Assembly: GCA_023129575.1 (NCBI GenBank)
Contig: JAGMBS010000003.1
Coordinates: 1-42,337 of the forward strand
DNA from: Minisyncoccota bacterium
GTDB taxonomy: Bacteria > Patescibacteriota > Minisyncoccia > Phycocordibacterales > UBA12079
Length of the DNA stretch: 42,337 nt
Direction: 5' to 3'
Shown here: in pieces, positions 680-19,918 of the stretch
How positions within the stretch are numbered: the stretch's first letter is position 1
How the letters are laid out: each line of letters begins with the position of its first letter
Position numbers and translations under genes: made by a program
Notes under the pieces: model-generated
The model's input: only the letters and a program-made list of their open reading frames with translations
Told to the model about the DNA's origin: nothing
The model's database searches: none

Positions 680-702
680 ACTTGGACGTCTCACGTCCAA
701 GT
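680..702. repeat. REP family 1, copy 1 (CTC loop)
   Basis: ACTTGGACGT-CTC-ACGTCCAAGT, exact, upstream of RAYT; inverted partner of 744-766. Confidence 0.95.
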
Positions 703-743
703 CAACATTCAAGCACATGTTCAAGTATCTTATCCCCATCTAA

Positions 744-766
744 ACTTGGACGTGAGACGTCCAAGT
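744..766. repeat. REP family 1, copy 2 (GAG loop)
   Basis: ACTTGGACGT-GAG-ACGTCCAAGT, exact, 18 bp before the RAYT start. Confidence 0.95.
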
Positions 767-784
767 GGTAATATATAAAACATA

Positions 785-1486
785 ATGAGAAAAGTTCCAT
801 TTGTACAAGGCGAATATTATCATATTTATAATCGTGGAGTTGATAAACGAGCGATATTTGGCGACATTTTTGATGTATTAAGATTTTATCAAAGTATGGA
901 AGAATTTAATGTTATTGAACCGATTGGCAGCATTTATGAAAATCGTTTCAACAAAAAAGATAAAACTAAACTTGGACGTGAGACGTCCAAGTCAGGAAAA
1001 TTAGTAGATATTGTGGCTTATTGTCTTAACCCGAATCATTTCCATCTTATATTAATTCCTTTGGTGGAAAATGGAATTAGTGAATTTATGAAAAGATTGT
1101 CAGGTGGATACACTAAGTTTTTTAACATAAAATATAAGAGAAGCGGAGCTTTATTTCAAGGGAATTTTAAAGATGTTCACATTGATACTGATGAATATCT
1201 AATGTATGTAAGCGCCTATGTAAACTTAAATAATCGTGTTCACAAACCACTTGGACGTGAGACGTCCAAGTTTAAGTTGATGAAGTCAAGTTGGAATGAG
1301 TATATGAATACAAAAATAATTAAAGATAAAAAAGGTGACAATAAGTTATCAGGCAATCCAAATGATATTTGCCAAAAGGACATTATTTTAGAGAGATTTG
1401 ATGACATAAGAGATTATAAAAAATTTGCTGAAAGCGCATTACAAAGTATTTTAAAAAGGCGATATGAGATGGATACATTGGAATAA
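785..1486 (+). CDS. REP-associated tyrosine transposase (RAYT), Y1/HUH transposase superfamily
   Basis: 'YYHIYNRGVDKRAIF' N-terminus, HUH motif in 'YCLNPNHFHLILIP', Tyr region 'SGGYTKFFNIKYKRSGALFQGNFKDVHI', 'YVNLNNRVHKP'. Flanked by and containing palindromic repeats. Confidence 0.92.
   Translation: MRKVPFVQGEYYHIYNRGVDKRAIFGDIFDVLRFYQSMEEFNVIEPIGSIYENRFNKKDKTKLGRETSKSGKLVDIVAYCLNPNHFHLILIPLVENGISEFMKRLSGGYTKFFNIKYKRSGALFQGNFKDVHIDTDEYLMYVSAYVNLNNRVHKPLGRETSKFKLMKSSWNEYMNTKIIKDKKGDNKLSGNPNDICQKDIILERFDDIRDYKKFAESALQSILKRRYEMDTLE
970..992. repeat. REP family 1, copy 3 (GAG), in frame inside RAYT
   Basis: Exact copy; encodes LGRETSK. Confidence 0.95.
1249..1271. repeat. REP family 1, copy 4 (GAG), in frame inside RAYT
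   Basis: Exact copy; encodes PLGRETSKF. Confidence 0.95.
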
Positions 1487-1522
1487 TTTTGCTCAGGTAC
1501 TTTGTTTTCAAAATTTAGACAA

Positions 1523-1545
1523 ACTTGGACGTGAGACGTCCAAGT
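1523..1545. repeat. REP family 1, copy 5 (GAG), downstream of RAYT
   Basis: Exact copy. Confidence 0.95.
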
Positions 1546-1633: not shown

Positions 1634-3325
1634 ATGAAAAATCGCAAGTATATTTTTGTTGCCGGAGGAGTGATGTCCGGCATAGGCAAAGGCATTACCG
1701 TTTCTTCCGTCGGAAAAATCTTGCAATCGCGCGGTTTCAAAATCACCGCCCTCAAAGTTGACCCCTATGTGAATGTGGACGCCGGCACAATGAATCCCAC
1801 CGAGCACGGCGAAGTGGCTGTTCTGGATGACGGTTATGAAACGGACCAAGATATGCTCAACTACGAGCGTTTTTTGAATGTGACTTTGCCGAATTTAAAT
1901 TATATGACGACCGGGCGGGTGTATCGTTCCGTTATAGAGCGGGAAAGAAATCTTGGTTACAAAGGCAAATGCGTGCAAGTTGTTCCCCATATTCCCTTGG
2001 AGATAATCGGGCGGATTGAAAAAGCGGCCAAATTGGCCGAGGCCGATATTGCCATCATAGAAATTGGTGGCACCATTGGCGAGTATGAAAATATTCTTTT
2101 TTTGGAGGCGGCGCGAATGTTAAAAATAAAGTATCCAAAAGATGTTTTGTTTATTATGCTTTCTTATTTGCCGATTCCAAGCAAAATCGGCGAGATGAAA
2201 ACTAAGCCGACTCAGCACGCGGCGCGCGCCTTAAACGCTACCGGCATCCAGCCGGATATTTTGATTGCCCGCAGCGAGGTTCCCTTGGATAAAAAACGAA
2301 AAGAAAAAATAGCGTTATTTTGCAACATTAATGCCGAAGATGTGATTTCCGCGCCGGATGTTGAGAGCATTTACGATGTTCCTCTTAATTTTGAAAAAGA
2401 TAAAATTAGCGATTCAATTATCAAAAAACTCGGGCTTCAAAAGCGAGCTAAAAAAAGCAATCTCAAACGCTGGAAAAATTTTGTGAAAAAAACTCATAAT
2501 GGCGGCCGGGAAATTAATATCGCCATTATCGGAAAATATTTTGACTCGGGCGATTTCGTTTTGTCCGACGCTTACATTTCCGTCATAGAAGCGATTAAAT
2601 TTTCCGCTTACAAAATAAATTGCAAACCGAAAATTCACTGGCTTAATTCCAAAGATTTTGAGGGCGGACGGGCGGACGGGCAAGCCCGTCCGCCTGTCCG
2701 CCGGCTGGCAGCGCTTAAAAAATATGACGGCGTGATTGTGCCGGGCGGTTTTGGTTCAAGCGGGGTAGAAGGGAAGATTAAAGTTATTCAATACGCGCGC
2801 GAAAACAAAATTCCGTTTTTCGGATTGTGCTACGGAATGCAATTGGCGGTGGTGGAATTTGCGCGCAATGTTCTCGGGTGGAAAGACGCGCACACTGCTG
2901 AAATTAATCCTCGGACAACTCACCCCGTTATTGACATAATGCCGGAGCAAAAAGAAAAATTGGCGAGGGACAACTATGGCGGAACAATGCGTCTCGGCGC
3001 GTATCCGACTGTTCTTAAAAAGGGGACAATTGCCCGCGCGGCCTACGGCCGCGCGGAAATCTCCGAACGCCACCGCCATCGCTTTGAAGTCAATCCGGAA
3101 TTCATTTCGCGGCTCACGCAAGCGGGGTTGATTTTTTCCGGAACTTCGCCGGACGGGCGATTGATGGAAATTGTGGAACTTGGACATACTATGTCCAAGT
3201 TGGGGAAATTGGCGGAAACACATCCGTTTTTTGTGGCGACTCAATTTCATCCGGAGTTTTTGGCGCGCCCGCTTTCTCCCCATCCGCTTTTCACGGAATT
3301 TTTGAAAGTCTGCAAGAAAAAATAA
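1634..3325 (+). CDS. pyrG: CTP synthase
   Basis: 'KYIFVAGGVMSGIGKGITVSSVGKILQSRG', 'KVDPYVNVDAGTMNPTEHGEVAVLDDGYETDQD', GATase 'FFGLCYGMQLAVVEFARN', 'ERHRHRFEVN', 'ATQFHPEF'. ATG at 1634 preferred over TTG at 1628. Confidence 0.97.
   Translation: MKNRKYIFVAGGVMSGIGKGITVSSVGKILQSRGFKITALKVDPYVNVDAGTMNPTEHGEVAVLDDGYETDQDMLNYERFLNVTLPNLNYMTTGRVYRSVIERERNLGYKGKCVQVVPHIPLEIIGRIEKAAKLAEADIAIIEIGGTIGEYENILFLEAARMLKIKYPKDVLFIMLSYLPIPSKIGEMKTKPTQHAARALNATGIQPDILIARSEVPLDKKRKEKIALFCNINAEDVISAPDVESIYDVPLNFEKDKISDSIIKKLGLQKRAKKSNLKRWKNFVKKTHNGGREINIAIIGKYFDSGDFVLSDAYISVIEAIKFSAYKINCKPKIHWLNSKDFEGGRADGQARPPVRRLAALKKYDGVIVPGGFGSSGVEGKIKVIQYARENKIPFFGLCYGMQLAVVEFARNVLGWKDAHTAEINPRTTHPVIDIMPEQKEKLARDNYGGTMRLGAYPTVLKKGTIARAAYGRAEISERHRHRFEVNPEFISRLTQAGLIFSGTSPDGRLMEIVELGHTMSKLGKLAETHPFFVATQFHPEFLARPLSPHPLFTEFLKVCKKK
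2663..2702. repeat. 40-bp GC-rich palindrome in the pyrG interdomain linker
   Basis: GGCGGACGGGCGGACGGGC-AA-GCCCGTCCGCCTGTCCGCC, one mismatched pair. Confidence 0.85.
3034..3056. repeat. 23-bp palindrome 10-3-10 in pyrG
   Basis: CCGCGCGGCC-TAC-GGCCGCGCGG. Confidence 0.75.
3178..3200. repeat. REP family 1, divergent copy 6, in frame in pyrG
   Basis: ACTTGGACAT-ACT-ATGTCCAAGT; both arms changed compensatorily; encodes LGHTMSKL. Confidence 0.85.
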
Positions 3326-4030: not shown

Positions 4031-7000
4031 ATGAAAATTGAAATCAATAAAAAAATAACGGTTAAAAAGGCAGCCAAGGAACGGCTCAACAGGTTGAGCC
4101 GTTCCTTAGCCGCCTTTGTCCTTCTTTTTTCTCTGATTTTTAGTCCCTTTAATTCAGCTTTTTCGTTCGCGGAAGATAATGAAAGTTCGGGTTTTTTGAA
4201 TTTCAAAACGGGCTTGAACGCCACGGCGTTTTTTGTTTTTAAAACAATTAATTCTTGGTTTCAAATATCCGATTCCGATTCCGAGCAAAAAAAATCACAA
4301 ACTGAAGGCTCATTTTTACAATCCCAAACAGAAACTATTGCGGAGGGCGGGCGCGCGACGCCCGCCCTCCCTCTCGCCCCCGCGGATTCCTCCGCCGCTG
4401 AAACTCAAATCTCCGCGGGCCAAAAATTAATAAAAAAAATCGCCCAATTAAGTCCGCCGGCCATCTTGCCTCAAGCGCTTTCGGTTCAGAGCGCCGGCAT
4501 CAGCCAAGAGGAACTCGCGAGAGAATTAAATATTTTGGAAAATTCTTTGAAAGCGGAAATTTACCGAATGGCTTCGCAATTGGCGCCCGCCGCGCCCGCC
4601 GCTCAAACACCCGCCAGCAATTTTCAGGCCATCGCGCTTTCGCAGAGAATAGATAATTTGGATCAGGTTACCATTTCCAACGCCACCATCTCTAAATCCA
4701 CTTTTAGCGGTTCAACCGGAACAATCACCGATTTAACGGCAACTGATTTGACAGCCACCGATTTCACGACCGCCAATTTGTCCGCTTCAAATAATAGTTA
4801 TTTTACCGCTTTAAGCCAAGGATCAATCCCGTTCATCGGAGCAAGCGGACTTCTGTTGCAAGACAACACCAATCTTTTTTGGGACGATACAAATAACCGC
4901 TTGGGTTTGGGAACAATTACTCCTAATTATACGCTTGATGTCAGCGGGGACATTCGCACCAGCGCCACTCTTTACGCTTCCACTACCGAAATAACCAATC
5001 TGACAATAACTACCGCTTCCTCCACGCAATTAACTGTCTCGGATAAATCGTGGCTGGGGACTGTTCTGGGCGGAACTTGGCAGGGGACAATCATCGGCGA
5101 CGATTACATTACCAAAACAGGTGATTGGTCCGGGACTGTTTCAGGAAGTTATACAGGATTTGGCAATGATTTTTATACATATTTCAACGCGACCAGCACA
5201 AACGCTCTCGCGGAAGGCGCGAGCAATTTATATTGGACGCAAAACAGATGGGATCAAGCGATGACCGCGACCACCACTCTGCCGACAATCACAACTTTGC
5301 TTAATTTAACTAATGCTTCTACCACTCAACTCACAGTCAGCGATAAATCGTGGATAGGAACTGTGCTGGGCGGGACTTGGCAAGGGACATCCATTACCGA
5401 CACTTATATTGATGATGACATCACTTTGACGAATATCACGCAGATAACAAGTCGGGCGATTTCGGATACTTCGGGAACGCTTTTGGTCGGCCGGGGCGGC
5501 ACGGGTTTGACTACATTAACAAGCGGTTCTATTTTATACGCCGACGGAGACGATAATTTAACCGCTCTGGCAAGTTCAACGGACGGTTATGTTTTGGTTT
5601 TGGACGCGAACGGCCGGCCGTCTTGGAATGATTTTACCGGAACGGGCAAAGTGGTTTATGACACTTCGCCGACTTTCACGACCGGGATTACAGTGCCGGC
5701 GGACAGCATCAGCCACACGGAATTAAGCGAGGGGGACGCTTTCACTTGGACGGGTTCGCATAGTTTCAGCGGAGCAGGCGATATAGATTTGCCGGCTGAC
5801 AGCGTGGATGCCGGAGATGTGAATTTCAATTACGCCGCCAGCGGTTCAGAGGGCGGTTCGGCGACTTCGGGAGACAGCGCGTCAGCGTTCTTTTCAACGG
5901 GGACAATCGAGCACGAATATGGCGGCTTGCAGGCGGATGTCGGTTCTTACGCGGGTTTGCTTTCAATTACGGGCGGAGCCACCGCGCAGGTGGATAGCGT
6001 CAGCGAATTGAACGCTCTTTTATTGGGAGAGAGTGTCGCTTCCACAACGAATGTTTGGGCGGACGCTTATATTTCTTCGGCTTCAACTTGGAACGCAAAA
6101 TGGGACGCGTTGTCGGATATTTCGTTGGCTCATAAGTCAATTTTTGTTGGGGACAGTTCCGGCCATCCGGTCGCGACTTCCACGATAACTGTTTTAGATA
6201 GCGGTTTTGTCGGCATCGGAACAACGGTCATCGGCACTCCAAATCAACTCTGGTCTAGTGGAACCCCTATTGTAGAAATAGGTGGTGTTACGAGTAATAT
6301 GTATAGCCTTTTGAATCTGGCGGGGAAAGATAATGATGATGGGGCGAATGTTGCAGTAATTACTTTCAATAATATGGAGAATTCCGATGCTTCTGATGCT
6401 ACAAGCCAGAATTTAGCAGCAATCTATGCTCAAACGGAAACATCTGACAGTAATGCAGGAGATGATTCAGGCGGGCATTTAGTATTTCTGACAAAACCAG
6501 AAGCGGGAACTGCTGCAGAAAGAATGAGAATAGATAGCGACGGCAACATCGGCATCGGCACGACGACGCCCACGGCGCTGACGCACATCCTCCAAACAGG
6601 CGCGACGGACGCATTCAGAGTAGATGATGAATTGGCGGATACAAGTCCATTCGTAATCGATGACGACGGCAACGTCGGGATTGGGACGGATAGTCCGACA
6701 AGTAAATTACATTTACCATCAGAAAACGATGAAACAACTCCGACATTATCTTTTGGTGATGGGGATTCTGGATTTTATGAAAGGAACGATGATGAGCTAG
6801 CAGTTTCTCTAGGTGGGGTTGGAAAATTTTATTTTGGTAGTTCTTGGGTGAGATATTTAGGAAATGGATGGTTGCTAAAGAATTCTAACACATCTAGTAC
6901 AAATCCAGCTTTTTCGTTTGAAGGTGATGTGGACACAGGTATTGGCAGGGCAGGAGCAAATGAATTATCTTTGATTACTGGAGCGACGGAACGGATCAGG

Positions 7001-9559
7001 ATAGACAATAGCGGCAACGTCGGCATAGGGACGACGACGCCACAGGCGGCATTAGATATCCAAAAACCCGCGACGGGGGATTATCTAAACATATCAAATG
7101 ACTTGCACGGGGACATAGTTACGGTCAATAGTTCGGGAAATCTCGGCATCGGCACGACGGCACCTACAGCCAAGTTAGACATAGACGGCACATCTAAATT
7201 TGGTGGAATAATAAATACAGGTGGTAATTGGATAAGCGGAGACGGAGGTGCGGAGGGAATTAGTGTTGACAGCGATGGAAAAGTCGGCATCGGCACGACG
7301 GAGCCAGAGGCGAAGTTGCATATGAAATCAGCATCCGCAGTGATAGCCAAATTTGAAGGAACAGGATCAAATGATGCTTTTCTTTCTTTTGATGTTCCTG
7401 CTACTCGTAATGCACTTATGGAATTTAAAGAAAACGATGTTGGTAAATGGTATATTGGAAATGTAGCGGCTAATGATAGATTTGAATTTCATAATGGTAC
7501 TAGTGAAGTTTTTTCAATTTTAAGTTCGGGCAACGTCGGCATCGGGACGACGAGTCCGAGTAGATTATTTCATGTGAGTCATGCTACTACTAATGATGTT
7601 GCTCAGTTTGAAAGTTTAGACGAGAAGGCTGGAATAATTTTAGCTGACCCAACTGGGAGTGTAGCATTAGAAACTATCGGTGGTGATTTTAGGGTGGATG
7701 TTACTGGTGATGGGAATTATGAGTTTTATGTCAAAGAGGACGGCAACATCGGCATCGGCACAACGGGGCCGGATGAGAAGTTGCATGTTAAAGGCGGAGT
7801 TTGCATTACAGACAGCGATACTTGCGCCGGCTCTCCAGGCGATGGCGATATATGGATACTTGGCAATATGTCCGCTCTCTCTGTTACCGACCGCACGCCC
7901 ATTTTTGAAGGCGACGCTTTGTCTGAAATCAAAAAAATTAAGGGAAAAGACGGGAAAATTGACCACTCCACTTTGCCGGAATTTGTGCGGGCGGAGATAG
8001 AAAAACCAATTTTTGAAAAACGGGAAGTGGAAGAAGAATTTTTTGACGAGGAATTAAATAAGACAATAATTAAATTGGTTGAAAAGGATACGCAAATCGG
8101 AACCCGCGTGGCAACAGAAAGAAATCTTGGCAATATGATTTCAATGAATGTGAGGGCTATTCAGCAATTGGCGGAAAAAATGGGAAACAAGGTTTTCAAG
8201 GGCGATGTCATCAATTACAACGCCGGGCAATTGGCGTTGGAAAATGACAGCGGCGAGCCGCAAATGAAAATCGCTTTTGACGCCGAAAATTTTGCCGAGC
8301 TGCAAGTTAACGCGGTCGGGGATTTGACGATTACGACGGCCGGCGCCGATTTGAATTTGCCGAACGACAATTTGTCTGTTTGTTCGGGGGGAGCGTGTCC
8401 GGCGGCCGCGCGTCAAATGAACGGCGCCGGCAACTTAACAGTGGAGAATACCGCTTTTGTCGCCGGAGCTTTGGGTGTCGGCACCAGCAGTCCGGACCGC
8501 GTTTTTAATGTTTTTGAAACGGCCGCGCGCCCGCAGATGAAAATTTCTTATGACACCGATAATTACGCCGAGCTGCAGGTCTCGGCCGCGGGGGATTTGG
8601 CCTTGAGCGCGCGCGGAGGCGACATTCGCCTGCCGAATGAAAATTTGGCTATTTGCTCGGGCGGCGCCTGCCCTGCTTCCGCCGGCCTTCTAACAGGAGC
8701 GGGAAATTTAACGGTGGAAAATACGGTCTTTGTGGCGGGCGCCTTGGGCGTGGGAACCGCTCGACCCGGCCGCGCTTTGGATGTTTTTGAAACGCGCACC
8801 AGCCCGCAGATGAGAATTTCCTATGATGAGGATTTGTATTCCGAACTGAATGTCTCCGCCACGGGCGATCTTATAATTTCAGCCCGGGGCGGCGATGTCT
8901 CCATTTTAAACGAGAATTTTAAGATTTGTTCGGAAAACGGCTGTCCGGCGGAAGCAAACCTCTTAAACGGCGCGGGCAATCTGGTGGTGGAAAACAGCAT
9001 TTTGGCCTTGGGCGGCATCGGAATAAACACCGCCTCCCCGTCTTATACTTTGGATGTGAACGGCACCTTGCGGGCTTATGGAATTACGGACGCTTCGGAT
9101 GAGCGGTTAAAAACAAATATCCAAAATCTAAGTGAACTTGGACGTGAGACGTCCAAGTTGAATTTGAACTTGGACGTCTCACGTCCAAGTGGGTCAAGTG
9201 GATTAAACGGGACTCTGGCTAAAATCAACAATCTCCGCGGAGTAACTTTTCATTGGCGCAATGCCGACTTGGGAACTGCTCGGCAAATCGGACTGATTGC
9301 GCAAGAATTGGAAATAGAATATCCGGAACTTGTGAGCACCGATAACAAAGGTTTTAAATCAATTCAATACGGCAAATTCACGGCGGTTTTGCTGGAGGCC
9401 GTCAAAGAATTATTTAGTATGAGCCGAACAATTGAATACAGATCCGCGAATTTGGAGAACCGAACGGCGGATTTGGAAAAGCAAAACAAATTGCTCGCGG
9501 CCAAAACAGAAAAATTGGAAGAGCGTCTGCGCGCCCTTGAGCAAATACTTGTCCAATAA
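4031..9559 (+). CDS. Giant repetitive surface/fibre protein with C-terminal Peptidase_S74-type intramolecular chaperone domain
   Basis: Hydrophobic N-terminal segment (SLAAFVLLFSLIFSPFNSAFSFA), many 'GN(V/I)GIGTTxP' fibre repeats, C-terminal 'DASDERLKTNIQNL...LRGVTFHWRN...QIGLIAQELEIEYPELV...SIQYGKFTAVLLEAVKEL' typical of S74 chaperone domains. Confidence 0.88.
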   Translation: MKIEINKKITVKKAAKERLNRLSRSLAAFVLLFSLIFSPFNSAFSFAEDNESSGFLNFKTGLNATAFFVFKTINSWFQISDSDSEQKKSQTEGSFLQSQTETIAEGGRATPALPLAPADSSAAETQISAGQKLIKKIAQLSPPAILPQALSVQSAGISQEELARELNILENSLKAEIYRMASQLAPAAPAAQTPASNFQAIALSQRIDNLDQVTISNATISKSTFSGSTGTITDLTATDLTATDFTTANLSASNNSYFTALSQGSIPFIGASGLLLQDNTNLFWDDTNNRLGLGTITPNYTLDVSGDIRTSATLYASTTEITNLTITTASSTQLTVSDKSWLGTVLGGTWQGTIIGDDYITKTGDWSGTVSGSYTGFGNDFYTYFNATSTNALAEGASNLYWTQNRWDQAMTATTTLPTITTLLNLTNASTTQLTVSDKSWIGTVLGGTWQGTSITDTYIDDDITLTNITQITSRAISDTSGTLLVGRGGTGLTTLTSGSILYADGDDNLTALASSTDGYVLVLDANGRPSWNDFTGTGKVVYDTSPTFTTGITVPADSISHTELSEGDAFTWTGSHSFSGAGDIDLPADSVDAGDVNFNYAASGSEGGSATSGDSASAFFSTGTIEHEYGGLQADVGSYAGLLSITGGATAQVDSVSELNALLLGESVASTTNVWADAYISSASTWNAKWDALSDISLAHKSIFVGDSSGHPVATSTITVLDSGFVGIGTTVIGTPNQLWSSGTPIVEIGGVTSNMYSLLNLAGKDNDDGANVAVITFNNMENSDASDATSQNLAAIYAQTETSDSNAGDDSGGHLVFLTKPEAGTAAERMRIDSDGNIGIGTTTPTALTHILQTGATDAFRVDDELADTSPFVIDDDGNVGIGTDSPTSKLHLPSENDETTPTLSFGDGDSGFYERNDDELAVSLGGVGKFYFGSSWVRYLGNGWLLKNSNTSSTNPAFSFEGDVDTGIGRAGANELSLITGATERIRIDNSGNVGIGTTTPQAALDIQKPATGDYLNISNDLHGDIVTVNSSGNLGIGTTAPTAKLDIDGTSKFGGIINTGGNWISGDGGAEGISVDSDGKVGIGTTEPEAKLHMKSASAVIAKFEGTGSNDAFLSFDVPATRNALMEFKENDVGKWYIGNVAANDRFEFHNGTSEVFSILSSGNVGIGTTSPSRLFHVSHATTNDVAQFESLDEKAGIILADPTGSVALETIGGDFRVDVTGDGNYEFYVKEDGNIGIGTTGPDEKLHVKGGVCITDSDTCAGSPGDGDIWILGNMSALSVTDRTPIFEGDALSEIKKIKGKDGKIDHSTLPEFVRAEIEKPIFEKREVEEEFFDEELNKTIIKLVEKDTQIGTRVATERNLGNMISMNVRAIQQLAEKMGNKVFKGDVINYNAGQLALENDSGEPQMKIAFDAENFAELQVNAVGDLTITTAGADLNLPNDNLSVCSGGACPAAARQMNGAGNLTVENTAFVAGALGVGTSSPDRVFNVFETAARPQMKISYDTDNYAELQVSAAGDLALSARGGDIRLPNENLAICSGGACPASAGLLTGAGNLTVENTVFVAGALGVGTARPGRALDVFETRTSPQMRISYDEDLYSELNVSATGDLIISARGGDVSILNENFKICSENGCPAEANLLNGAGNLVVENSILALGGIGINTASPSYTLDVNGTLRAYGITDASDERLKTNIQNLSELGRETSKLNLNLDVSRPSGSSGLNGTLAKINNLRGVTFHWRNADLGTARQIGLIAQELEIEYPELVSTDNKGFKSIQYGKFTAVLLEAVKELFSMSRTIEYRSANLENRTADLEKQNKLLAAKTEKLEERLRALEQILVQ
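4076..4107. repeat. 32-bp palindrome at the N-terminal end of the fibre gene
   Basis: AAGGAACGGCTCAAC-AG-GTTGAGCCGTTCCTT; shares GAACGGCTCAA/TTGAGCCGTTC arms with 16596-16621. Confidence 0.85.
4342..4370. repeat. GC-rich palindrome in the fibre gene
   Basis: GGAGGGCGGGCG-CGCGA-CGCCCGCCCTCC. Confidence 0.8.
8258..9076 (+). repeat. Three diverged tandem 273-bp (91-aa) repeats inside the fibre gene
   Basis: 'PQMKIAFD', 'PQMKISYD' and 'PQMRISYD' start at 8258, 8531 and 8804, exactly 273 bp apart; each unit includes a Cys pair (CSGGACP/CSENGCP) and GAGNL.VEN. Confidence 0.85.
9136..9158. repeat. REP family 1, copy 7 (GAG), in the S74 region of the fibre gene
   Basis: Exact copy; encodes LGRETSK; paired with 9168-9190. 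Confidence 0.95.
9168..9190. repeat. REP family 1, copy 8 (CTC)
   Basis: Exact copy; encodes LDVSRPS; inverted partner of copy 7. Confidence 0.95.
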
Positions 9560-14650: not shown

Positions 14651-15784
14651 ATGCAAACTCCAAAAAAAATCAAAGTGGCGATTAACGGTTTCGGGCGAAT
14701 TGGCAGAGCTTTTTTTAAATTGGCGATTGAAAATCCAAGAATTGAAATTGTGGCGGTTAATGATTTGGCCGATATTGAAAACCTCGCTTATCTTCTCAAA
14801 TACGACAGTCCTTATCCAACTTGGACGTCTCACGTCCAAGTGATGGATTTAAACTTGGACGTGAGACGTCCAAGTGAACCAAGTAAAAATATTTTGCAAA
14901 TTGCCGGCAAAGATATTCCGTTTTTTAGCGAGCCGGATCCGTGTTATTTGCCGTGGAAGGATTTGAAAGTGGATATTGCGGTAGAAGCGACCGGAATTTT
15001 TAATACCTATCAAAAAGCGCGGGCTCATCTTGAAGCGGGCGCGAACAGAGTTATTTTAACGGCCCCCGCCAAAGATGAAACAGAGGCGGATTGTTGTTCC
15101 GCCGCGCGGAACAACAATCCGCCTCAGCCGCTTCAAACTCCCGATTACGGCGTCATTGGCAAAACAATTTTAATGGGCATCAACGATGAGGAATTAAAAG
15201 ATTGTCAAATAAGCGCCAACGGCTCTTGCACCACCAACGCGGTTAGTCCGGTTTTACAAATTCTCAATCAAAGCATCGGCGTGGAAAAAGCGCTTCTAAA
15301 TACGATTCATTCCTATACCGCCGCCCAAAAAATAGTTGATTCCGCCGACAAAAAAGATTTTCGCCGCGGCCGCGCCGGCGCGCAAAATATTATTCCGACT
15401 ACAACCGGCGCCGCCAGCGCGACCACTTTGGCGATTAAAGAATTGGCGGGGCGCTTTGACGGACTGGCGGTTAGAGTGCCGACCGTGCTGGGTTCACTGG
15501 CCGATTTAACTTTTACGGCCAAGAGAAATACGAGCGAAAAAGAAATTAACAAGATTTTGAAACAGGCCTCCCAAGAGGAAAAATGGCGAGGGATTTTTAC
15601 AACCACCGAAAAGCCGGTTGTTTCTTCGGATATTATCGGGAACATTTACGCTTCCATCGCCGATTTATCATTGACAAAAGTTGTGGGCGGAAATCTTGCC
15701 AAAGTTCTGATTTGGTATGATAATGAAATGGGTTACGCCAACACTCTCATTAAACATATAAATAAAATAAGAGAGATTTTATAA
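14651..15784 (+). CDS. gapA: Glyceraldehyde-3-phosphate dehydrogenase, with palindrome-encoded insertions
   Basis: 'KVAINGFGRIGRAFFKLAI', 'NGSCTTNAVSPVLQIL', 'TIHSYTAAQKIVD', 'AAGAQNIIPTTTGAA'-type motif, 'IWYDNEMGYANTLI'. Confidence 0.96.
   Translation: MQTPKKIKVAINGFGRIGRAFFKLAIENPRIEIVAVNDLADIENLAYLLKYDSPYPTWTSHVQVMDLNLDVRRPSEPSKNILQIAGKDIPFFSEPDPCYLPWKDLKVDIAVEATGIFNTYQKARAHLEAGANRVILTAPAKDETEADCCSAARNNNPPQPLQTPDYGVIGKTILMGINDEELKDCQISANGSCTTNAVSPVLQILNQSIGVEKALLNTIHSYTAAQKIVDSADKKDFRRGRAGAQNIIPTTTGAASATTLAIKELAGRFDGLAVRVPTVLGSLADLTFTAKRNTSEKEINKILKQASQEEKWRGIFTTTEKPVVSSDIIGNIYASIADLSLTKVVGGNLAKVLIWYDNEMGYANTLIKHINKIREIL
14819..14841. repeat. REP family 1, copy 9 (CTC), in gapA
   Basis: Exact copy; encodes TWTSHVQV. 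Confidence 0.95.
14853..14875. repeat. REP family 1, copy 10 (GAG), in gapA
   Basis: Exact copy; encodes LDVRRPS; inverted partner of copy 9. Confidence 0.95.
15083..15125. repeat. 43-bp palindrome in gapA
   Basis: GAGGCGGATTGTTGTTCCG-CCGCG-CGGAACAACAATCCGCCTC, 19-bp perfect arms. Confidence 0.9.
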
Positions 15785-18769: not shown

Positions 18770-19918
18770 ATGAAAAATAAAATAAATTATAAAAACAAAA
18801 AGGTTTTTGTGGCTTTGTCCGGCGGAGTGGATTCATCGGTGACGGCGATTTTGCTTAAGAAACAAGGTTATGCCGTGACAGGTGTTTTCATTAAAGTTTG
18901 GCAACCCGATTTTGCGGGAAGCCAATGGAAAAAAGATTGCGCCGACGCTAAACAAATTTGCGATATTTTAGATATTCCCTTTGTTGTTTTAAATTTGGGA
19001 AAAGAATATCGGCGGAGTGTTTTTGATTATATGATTACCGAATACCAAAAGGGACGGACGCCCAATCCGGATGTAATGTGCAATAAAAAATTGAAATTCG
19101 GGGCGTTTTTGGACTTTGCGTTAAAAAATGGAGCGGATTTTATTGCTACAGGACATTATGTTTATACGAGTGAAAACTTGGACGTCTCACGTCCAAGTTT
19201 AAAACTTGGACGTGAGACGTCCAAGTTTTTTAAATCTAAAGATAGGAAATTGATGGCGGGAGCGGATAAAAATAAGGATCAGTCGTATTTTCTTTGGACA
19301 TTAACGCAAAAGCAATTAAAGTATTGCCTTTTCCCGATTGGACAATACAAAAAATCTCAAGTCAGAAAATTGGCAGAGGAGTTTGGATTGCCTACTGCCC
19401 GGAAAAAAGACAGCCAGGGCCTTTGTATTATTGGAAAGGTAAAAATGAAAGAATTTTTACGGCGTTTTATTCCCCAGAAACAGGGAGATGTTTTGAATCA
19501 AGACGGAGAAATAATTGGTCGGCATAAGGGAGTGTATTTTTATACATTGGGTCAAAGGCATGGATTTGAAATTAGCAAAAAAGGCGTCCTGGACAAACCG
19601 TATTATATTTTTGCCAAAGATTTCAAAAATAACAGCTTGACTGTTTTGAATAAACCGGCCGGGGGTTTTGCTTCCAAGTATGGAAAAAACGAGATTGAGA
19701 TTAAGGACATTAATTGGATTGCCGGCGCGCCGCCCGATTTGAGCAGGAAATACAAGGCCAGAATCAGATACCGCCAGCCCTTACAAGGTTGCGGTTTACA
19801 AAACAATGCCAAGAAAATAATTGTTAAATTTGATATTCCGCAGTGGGCGGCGACTCCCGGGCAGTCGCTTGTTATTTATGACGGCGAAATATGTCTTGGA
19901 GGCGGAGTGATTGTTTGA
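18770..19918 (+). CDS. mnmA: tRNA-specific 2-thiouridylase
   Basis: 'KVFVALSGGVDSSVTAILLKKQGYAVTGVFIKVW', 'GRTPNPDVMCNKKLKFGAFLDFA', 'FIATGHYVYT', 'DKNKDQSYFLWTL', 'LGQRHGFEI'. Confidence 0.95.
   Translation: MKNKINYKNKKVFVALSGGVDSSVTAILLKKQGYAVTGVFIKVWQPDFAGSQWKKDCADAKQICDILDIPFVVLNLGKEYRRSVFDYMITEYQKGRTPNPDVMCNKKLKFGAFLDFALKNGADFIATGHYVYTSENLDVSRPSLKLGRETSKFFKSKDRKLMAGADKNKDQSYFLWTLTQKQLKYCLFPIGQYKKSQVRKLAEEFGLPTARKKDSQGLCIIGKVKMKEFLRRFIPQKQGDVLNQDGEIIGRHKGVYFYTLGQRHGFEISKKGVLDKPYYIFAKDFKNNSLTVLNKPAGGFASKYGKNEIEIKDINWIAGAPPDLSRKYKARIRYRQPLQGCGLQNNAKKIIVKFDIPQWAATPGQSLVIYDGEICLGGGVIV
19176..19198. repeat. REP family 1, copy 11 (CTC), in mnmA
   Basis: Exact copy; encodes LDVSRPS. Confidence 0.95.
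19204..19226. repeat. REP family 1, copy 12 (GAG), in mnmA
   Basis: Exact copy; encodes LGRETSK; inverted partner of copy 11. Confidence 0.95.

Follow-up and report, generated by a model that had tools for sequence, protein, structure and literature searches.

In the window (the whole 42,337-nucleotide stretch of DNA analysed here), the gene of a RAYT-like Y1/HUH transposase is embedded in copies of a 23-bp palindrome (REP), which is probably the substrate on which its protein acts. The copies are found at fixed stations, two of them inside the reading frame, where they are tolerated in frame. Judged from the sequences of related loci, the station copies of a lineage share one identity and change together, so that the array undergoes a concerted turnover within the gene of its own enzyme. 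The source genome (654 kb in 48 contigs, 98% complete) has its relatives among the Paceibacteria (Parcubacteria), hence its Paceibacteria-like placement.

The RAYT-like gene and its palindromes

The gene (785-1486, forward strand, as are all features given below) encodes a protein of 233 aa. Two exact REP copies precede it, one in the CTC-loop orientation at 680-702 and the other with a GAG loop at 744-766; the latter, centred at about -29 from the start codon, occupies the upstream station that recurs in relatives. The remaining three copies are also exact and of the GAG-loop orientation: one at the internal station A (970-992), one at the internal station B (1249-1271, ~10 residues past the putative catalytic Tyr), and one at the downstream station (1523-1545). 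Stations A and B are both conserved. The five exact palindromes of the initial annotation are all present as placed by pattern matching in the window, and the translation of ORF 785-1486 agrees that both internal copies are in frame, each encoding LGRETSK. The description of the locus as a Y1/HUH RAYT gene with its own REPs on both sides and within it was likewise upheld, with the protein now named RAYT-like.

This name was chosen because the protein (P0001) scores far under the cut-off of the NCBIfam equivalog NF047646 (REP-associated tyrosine transposase, REP_Tyr_transpos; 25 bits, cut-off 80) and is thus not a certified RAYT. It passes the cut-off of Pfam Y1_Tnp (27.1 bits, cut-off 23). A sequence-profile search against the PDB gave no match. 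The fold search with its AlphaFold (AF2) model (pLDDT 88) found 4er8, the E. coli RayT with a REP hairpin, as the best PDB match, followed by the IS608 and ISDra2 transposases (TnpA). The HUH residues H85 and H87, as well as Y145, are invariant in an alignment of 25 homologues. Y145 is aligned with Y115, the catalytic Tyr of E. coli RayT, in a modest alignment (probability 37%, E 3.5e-4). In the model, station A forms a very-low-confidence loop that immediately precedes the HUH strand (residues 64-67 have a pLDDT <50). According to sequence and prediction, the internal stations are located in loops of the protein and are thus tolerated as short in-frame peptides. A search of PHROGs for a phage origin of the locus gave no match.

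The locus thus shows the features that define RAYT/TnpAREP proteins, namely a Y1 HUH domain with the HUH motif and one (putative) catalytic Tyr, and cognate palindromes flanking the gene. The tetranucleotide at the hairpin foot that marks the GTAG/CGTC superfamilies is absent as a consistent feature at every locus compared (of 438 flanks, 3 have GTAG and 5 have CGTC). The studied RAYTs act on single-stranded REP hairpins, are strand-specific, and need or use the GTAG tag (PMC8266576). As no such tag is seen here, recognition must differ from theirs. The source genome also holds a second RAYT-like gene (L222/L046, C1:39669-40139) whose own palindrome, TGACGGACGTCCGACGTCCGTCA, likewise occurs upstream of the gene, within it, and at its end.

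Fixed stations and joint change of their palindromes in relatives

RAYT genes were searched for in 99 related genomes, mostly metagenome assemblies (62 with a RAYT), and in named genomes, giving a non-redundant set of 126 loci: 70 matched on both flanks, 40 without a both-side match, and 16 without a flank palindrome. Four palindrome stations are found in most of the 126 loci: just upstream, at codon ~55-72 (A), at codon ~145-168 (B), and just downstream. In most of the first 31 loci a single palindrome is present in 3 to 5 copies at these same places, and it differs from locus to locus. The proposal of a one-off self-insertion of the REP into the RAYT gene therefore gave way to two conserved stations, which are shared by relatives in many of the order's families and hold a palindrome particular to each locus. 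Homologues carrying the LGRETSK peptide without the repeat were looked for and not seen; the homologues carry other peptides, spelled by their own repeats. Besides LGRETSK, the encoded peptides include LGGEASK, LRGPTSQ, and LGSLAPK, among others; stations A and B of a given protein often have identical ones.

Since the own REP was defined from the flank palindromes, the sample favours loci with clear flanks; among the 70 matched on both flanks, 57 carry their own palindrome core within the ORF with no more than one mismatch (exact in 48), against 2 of 280 in a control with the cores of other loci. Together with dinucleotide shuffles of the window, none of which (0/100) yielded any palindrome match (chance expectation 0), this control rules out a chance origin. 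The palindrome centre falls on the middle codon base in 91 of 108 internal copies. The internal stations are not obligatory, as 26 of the 110 loci with a flank REP have no internal copy. The density of the own REP is 1.7/kb in the ORF, 5-6.5/kb within 150 bp, and 0.02-0.2/kb further out. Relative to the upstream copy, the orientation of A is random (24 same, 22 opposite), and that of B likewise. The named loci with internal copies belong to Moranbacteria, Giovannonibacteria, Nomurabacteria, Zambryskibacteria, Yanofskybacteria, Campbellbacteria, Vogelbacteria, Niyogibacteria, and other groups, and the RAYT occupies the same place in G005 and Campbellbacteria CP011215. An assembly artefact is ruled out by the presence of the layout in the complete chromosome CP011215 and in >100 contigs from two collections.

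The joint change is seen in pairs of related loci. The RAYT genes of L020 (G004) and L116 (G006) both adjoin pyrG and encode proteins with 80, 89, and 76% identity in the N-terminal, middle, and C-terminal segments, respectively, and they carry unrelated REPs at all four stations (upstream, A, B, and downstream). Around A, the difference between them extends over the entire loop and not just the palindrome, so the old copy may have been lost and another one newly inserted. In L167, a C-to-T change relative to L165 disrupts a pairing in the stem and turns LGGKASK into LGGKTSK; the change is common to the upstream, A, and downstream copies and is orientation-matched. Between the sister loci L188, L194, and L195 the loop orientation flips. 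When the 70 loci are placed on a tree that leaves out the A and B columns, no fewer than 53 switches of REP class are needed, compared to at least 17 changes of occupancy at A and at least 15 at B, indicating that the stations outlast the sequences in them. The correlation of the REP arms with protein identity is weak (Spearman 0.19). An exchange of modules among RAYTs at their internal REPs was considered, since in some pairs the A-B segment shows greater likeness than the two ends, but the third-position identity at shared residues is not consistently raised there. The alikeness is instead simple conservation, because the catalytic core sits there.

Some loci depart from the usual layout. 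In L220 (G017:C12, around 7380-7748) the part before A is fused in frame, via one REP (FGSSTPK), to the part after B, and the catalytic core is missing, i.e. a natural A-to-B deletion; being the single case in 397 genomes searched, it does not represent a recurrent deletion. In L221 (G035:C32) the RAYT frame is interrupted close to station A, and palindromes are found at the interruption as well as upstream and downstream. Two genomes in the 0.5-1 Mb range hold many RAYT-like genes (12 RAYT matches in G097 and 9 in G072), several with different palindromes.

Copies elsewhere in the source genome

The dispersal of the REP suggested by the initial annotation was borne out by the genome scan (16 exact copies and one with 1 mismatch; 0 for the reversed-pattern control). 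Outside the RAYT unit there are 11 exact copies, every one of them in an ORF. They occupy six places, three in the window (mnmA and the genes of GAPDH and of an S74-type protein) and three on other contigs (mutM, pheT, and a glycosyltransferase gene); for several of these genes the domain identity was checked. The 1-mismatch copy sits in a class I tRNA synthetase gene. The REPs of the source genome are thus not mostly intergenic, as expected for repetitive extragenic palindromes, and neither is the REP of the second RAYT of CP011215, whose three copies outside RAYT2 are all in ORFs (mutM, ligA, and truB). The REPIN arrangement, an inverted REP pair as the dispersed unit, is represented by five close pairs with spacers of 5 to 11 bp and opposite loop orientations. 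Three in-frame pairs were located in the window by pattern matching: at 9136-9190 (copies 9136/9168), near the 3' end of the Peptidase_S74-type ORF (4031-9559); at 14819-14875 (copies 14819/14853), in the GAPDH gene (14651-15784); and at 19176-19226 (copies 19176/19204), in mnmA (18770-19918). The GAPDH loop with the pair is shorter in aligned relatives. The mnmA site is empty in G003, G004, G008, and G009 and holds other palindrome pairs in G002 and G006.

In mutM, both the source genome and Campbellbacteria CP011215 have the REP of their own RAYT at the same loop. Four mutM loci (L085, L087, L088, and L092) from four genomes of the family show four different palindromes in one loop, a REP hotspot. 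The pheT gene (L224:496-2916, G000:C47) contains, besides its REP pair, an NlpC/P60 domain (Pfam E 8.5e-18) between B3/4 and B5. A sister palindrome family, ACTTGGACATAGTATGTCCAAGT, has five copies in the source genome (G000): a single copy in the window (ACTTGGACATACTATGTCCAAGT, 3178-3200, pattern match), in frame in pyrG as LGHTMSK, and four others at C2:10275, C12:8276, C16:6813, and C48:7696. No ORF of 80 aa was found at these four places and no RAYT matching the family was seen; the family is possibly an older REP generation.

Comparison with known systems and possible explanations

The locus resembles the REPtrons (tnpAREP/RAYT) of E. coli, Pseudomonas, and Stenotrophomonas in its Y1/HUH protein, the palindromes on both sides, the inverted REP pairs, and the multiple RAYTs each with its own REP; it differs from them in the REPs at two in-ORF stations, the absence of the GTAG tag, and the fast concerted turnover. 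In E. coli rayT, the sole outside control for a RAYT ORF, the REPs are only outside the ORF and none is inside. IS200/IS605 elements also have a Y1 transposase gene bordered by hairpins, in keeping with the fold matches to the IS608 and ISDra2 TnpA, whereas here hairpins are also inside the transposase ORF. In-frame REPs in housekeeping genes are not new in kind: a 2013 report on intragenic GTAG/CGTC REPs (PMC3733652) describes in-frame REPs and dimers in genes including those of DNA ligase and truB, as in CP011215, and different REPs at about the same site in recB of X. campestris and X. oryzae. In the sections consulted, RAYT genes are overlapped by REPs at their ends only (5'ov, 3'ov), and neither in-ORF stations nor a turnover in concert with the RAYT is reported. 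The Rickettsia palindromic elements (RPE), reviewed in PMC10969869, are likewise palindromes inserted in frame into housekeeping genes that are unrelated to one another, in a genome that is also reduced, but are longer (about 150 bp), while the inserts here match the RAYT locus of the same genome.

On balance, we consider it somewhat more probable than not that the locus is a RAYT-like Y1/HUH unit (REPtron) with its cognate palindrome at fixed stations, and that the station copies are homogenised by RAYT strand transfer onto occupied sites. The manner in which RAYTs spread REPs is unsolved, and by analogy with E. coli and other TnpAREP work the protein studied here would be capable of cleavage, strand transfer, and replacement (PMC8266576). 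It would recognise the palindrome as a single-stranded hairpin, cut there, and transfer REP strands to sites where a REP is already present; the current REP would thus replace those at occupied stations and keep the array uniform. Such RAYT-mediated replacement would be the cause of the concerted turnover. The same activity would place REPs and REP pairs elsewhere, making the protein the mobiliser of its REP, and in this gene-dense genome the surviving dispersed copies would mainly be in-frame inserts in tolerant loops. As a tentative extension, which we regard as possible though somewhat doubtful, the RAYT may drive REP-for-REP conversion at occupied stations, those within its own gene as well as those in housekeeping genes far away (mutM, for example), the whole REP set of a lineage switching with the specificity of the enzyme.

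The same pattern could be produced by selection instead of copying, if the RAYT used the stations as binding sites for sensing its own gene (through autoregulation at the DNA or mRNA level, or self-marking) and all stations followed a shift in its specificity. The fixed positions, one just before the start codon, and the strong enrichment of the REP in the ORF in comparison to neighbouring DNA agree with this. We nevertheless find it unlikely: the studied RAYTs are strand-specific (PMC8266576), whereas the orientation of A and B versus the upstream copy is random, which for A (24 vs 22) argues against a strand-specific mRNA signal; the occupancy of A and B changes repeatedly on the tree; and the stem-breaking variant of L167, present in all its copies, is easier copied than selected three times. 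Strand transfer onto occupied sites also accounts better than repeated independent insertion for the excess of REP class changes over occupancy changes (53 vs 17 and 15), which fits in-place replacement. Were REPs hopping near the RAYT gene, with only two loops tolerating an in-frame insert and A and B refilled as old copies vanish, the neighbours should also be filled, yet the density drops 8- to 85-fold beyond 150 bp relative to the ORF. This explanation is therefore given a still lower chance, even if the mutM and mnmA loops behave like hotspots (different palindromes in some relatives, empty in others). The codon phase of the internal RAYT copies is also seen in most unrelated host genes, as insertion would have it, and so a shared phase alone need not mean descent.

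A homogenisation independent of the RAYT, through gene conversion, hairpin-templated repair, or template switching among close palindromes, would suit the spacing of the station copies (within about 1 kb) and the loop flips in L188, L194, and L195, which are expected from hairpin inversion. It leaves aside that copies on other contigs match as well (mutM, pheT, and glycosyltransferase), and stretches of 15-23 bp are short for ordinary recombination; we regard it as very unlikely, and replacement by the RAYT-like protein is retained as the preferred explanation.

In the open-access literature, RAYTs together with Parcubacteria were found in a single paper, which mentions each once in passing, and no description of conserved in-ORF stations inside a RAYT itself was found, which is weak evidence of novelty, as most subscription papers are outside that scope. 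In general, the locus combines an enzyme and its putative substrate within one gene, and sequence alone reveals dozens of natural pairs of enzyme and REP. Such a matched series is useful for testing recognition and for following the turnover of REPs. The locus also presents a gene in which two loops of the protein are altered as the DNA element that the protein probably processes evolves.
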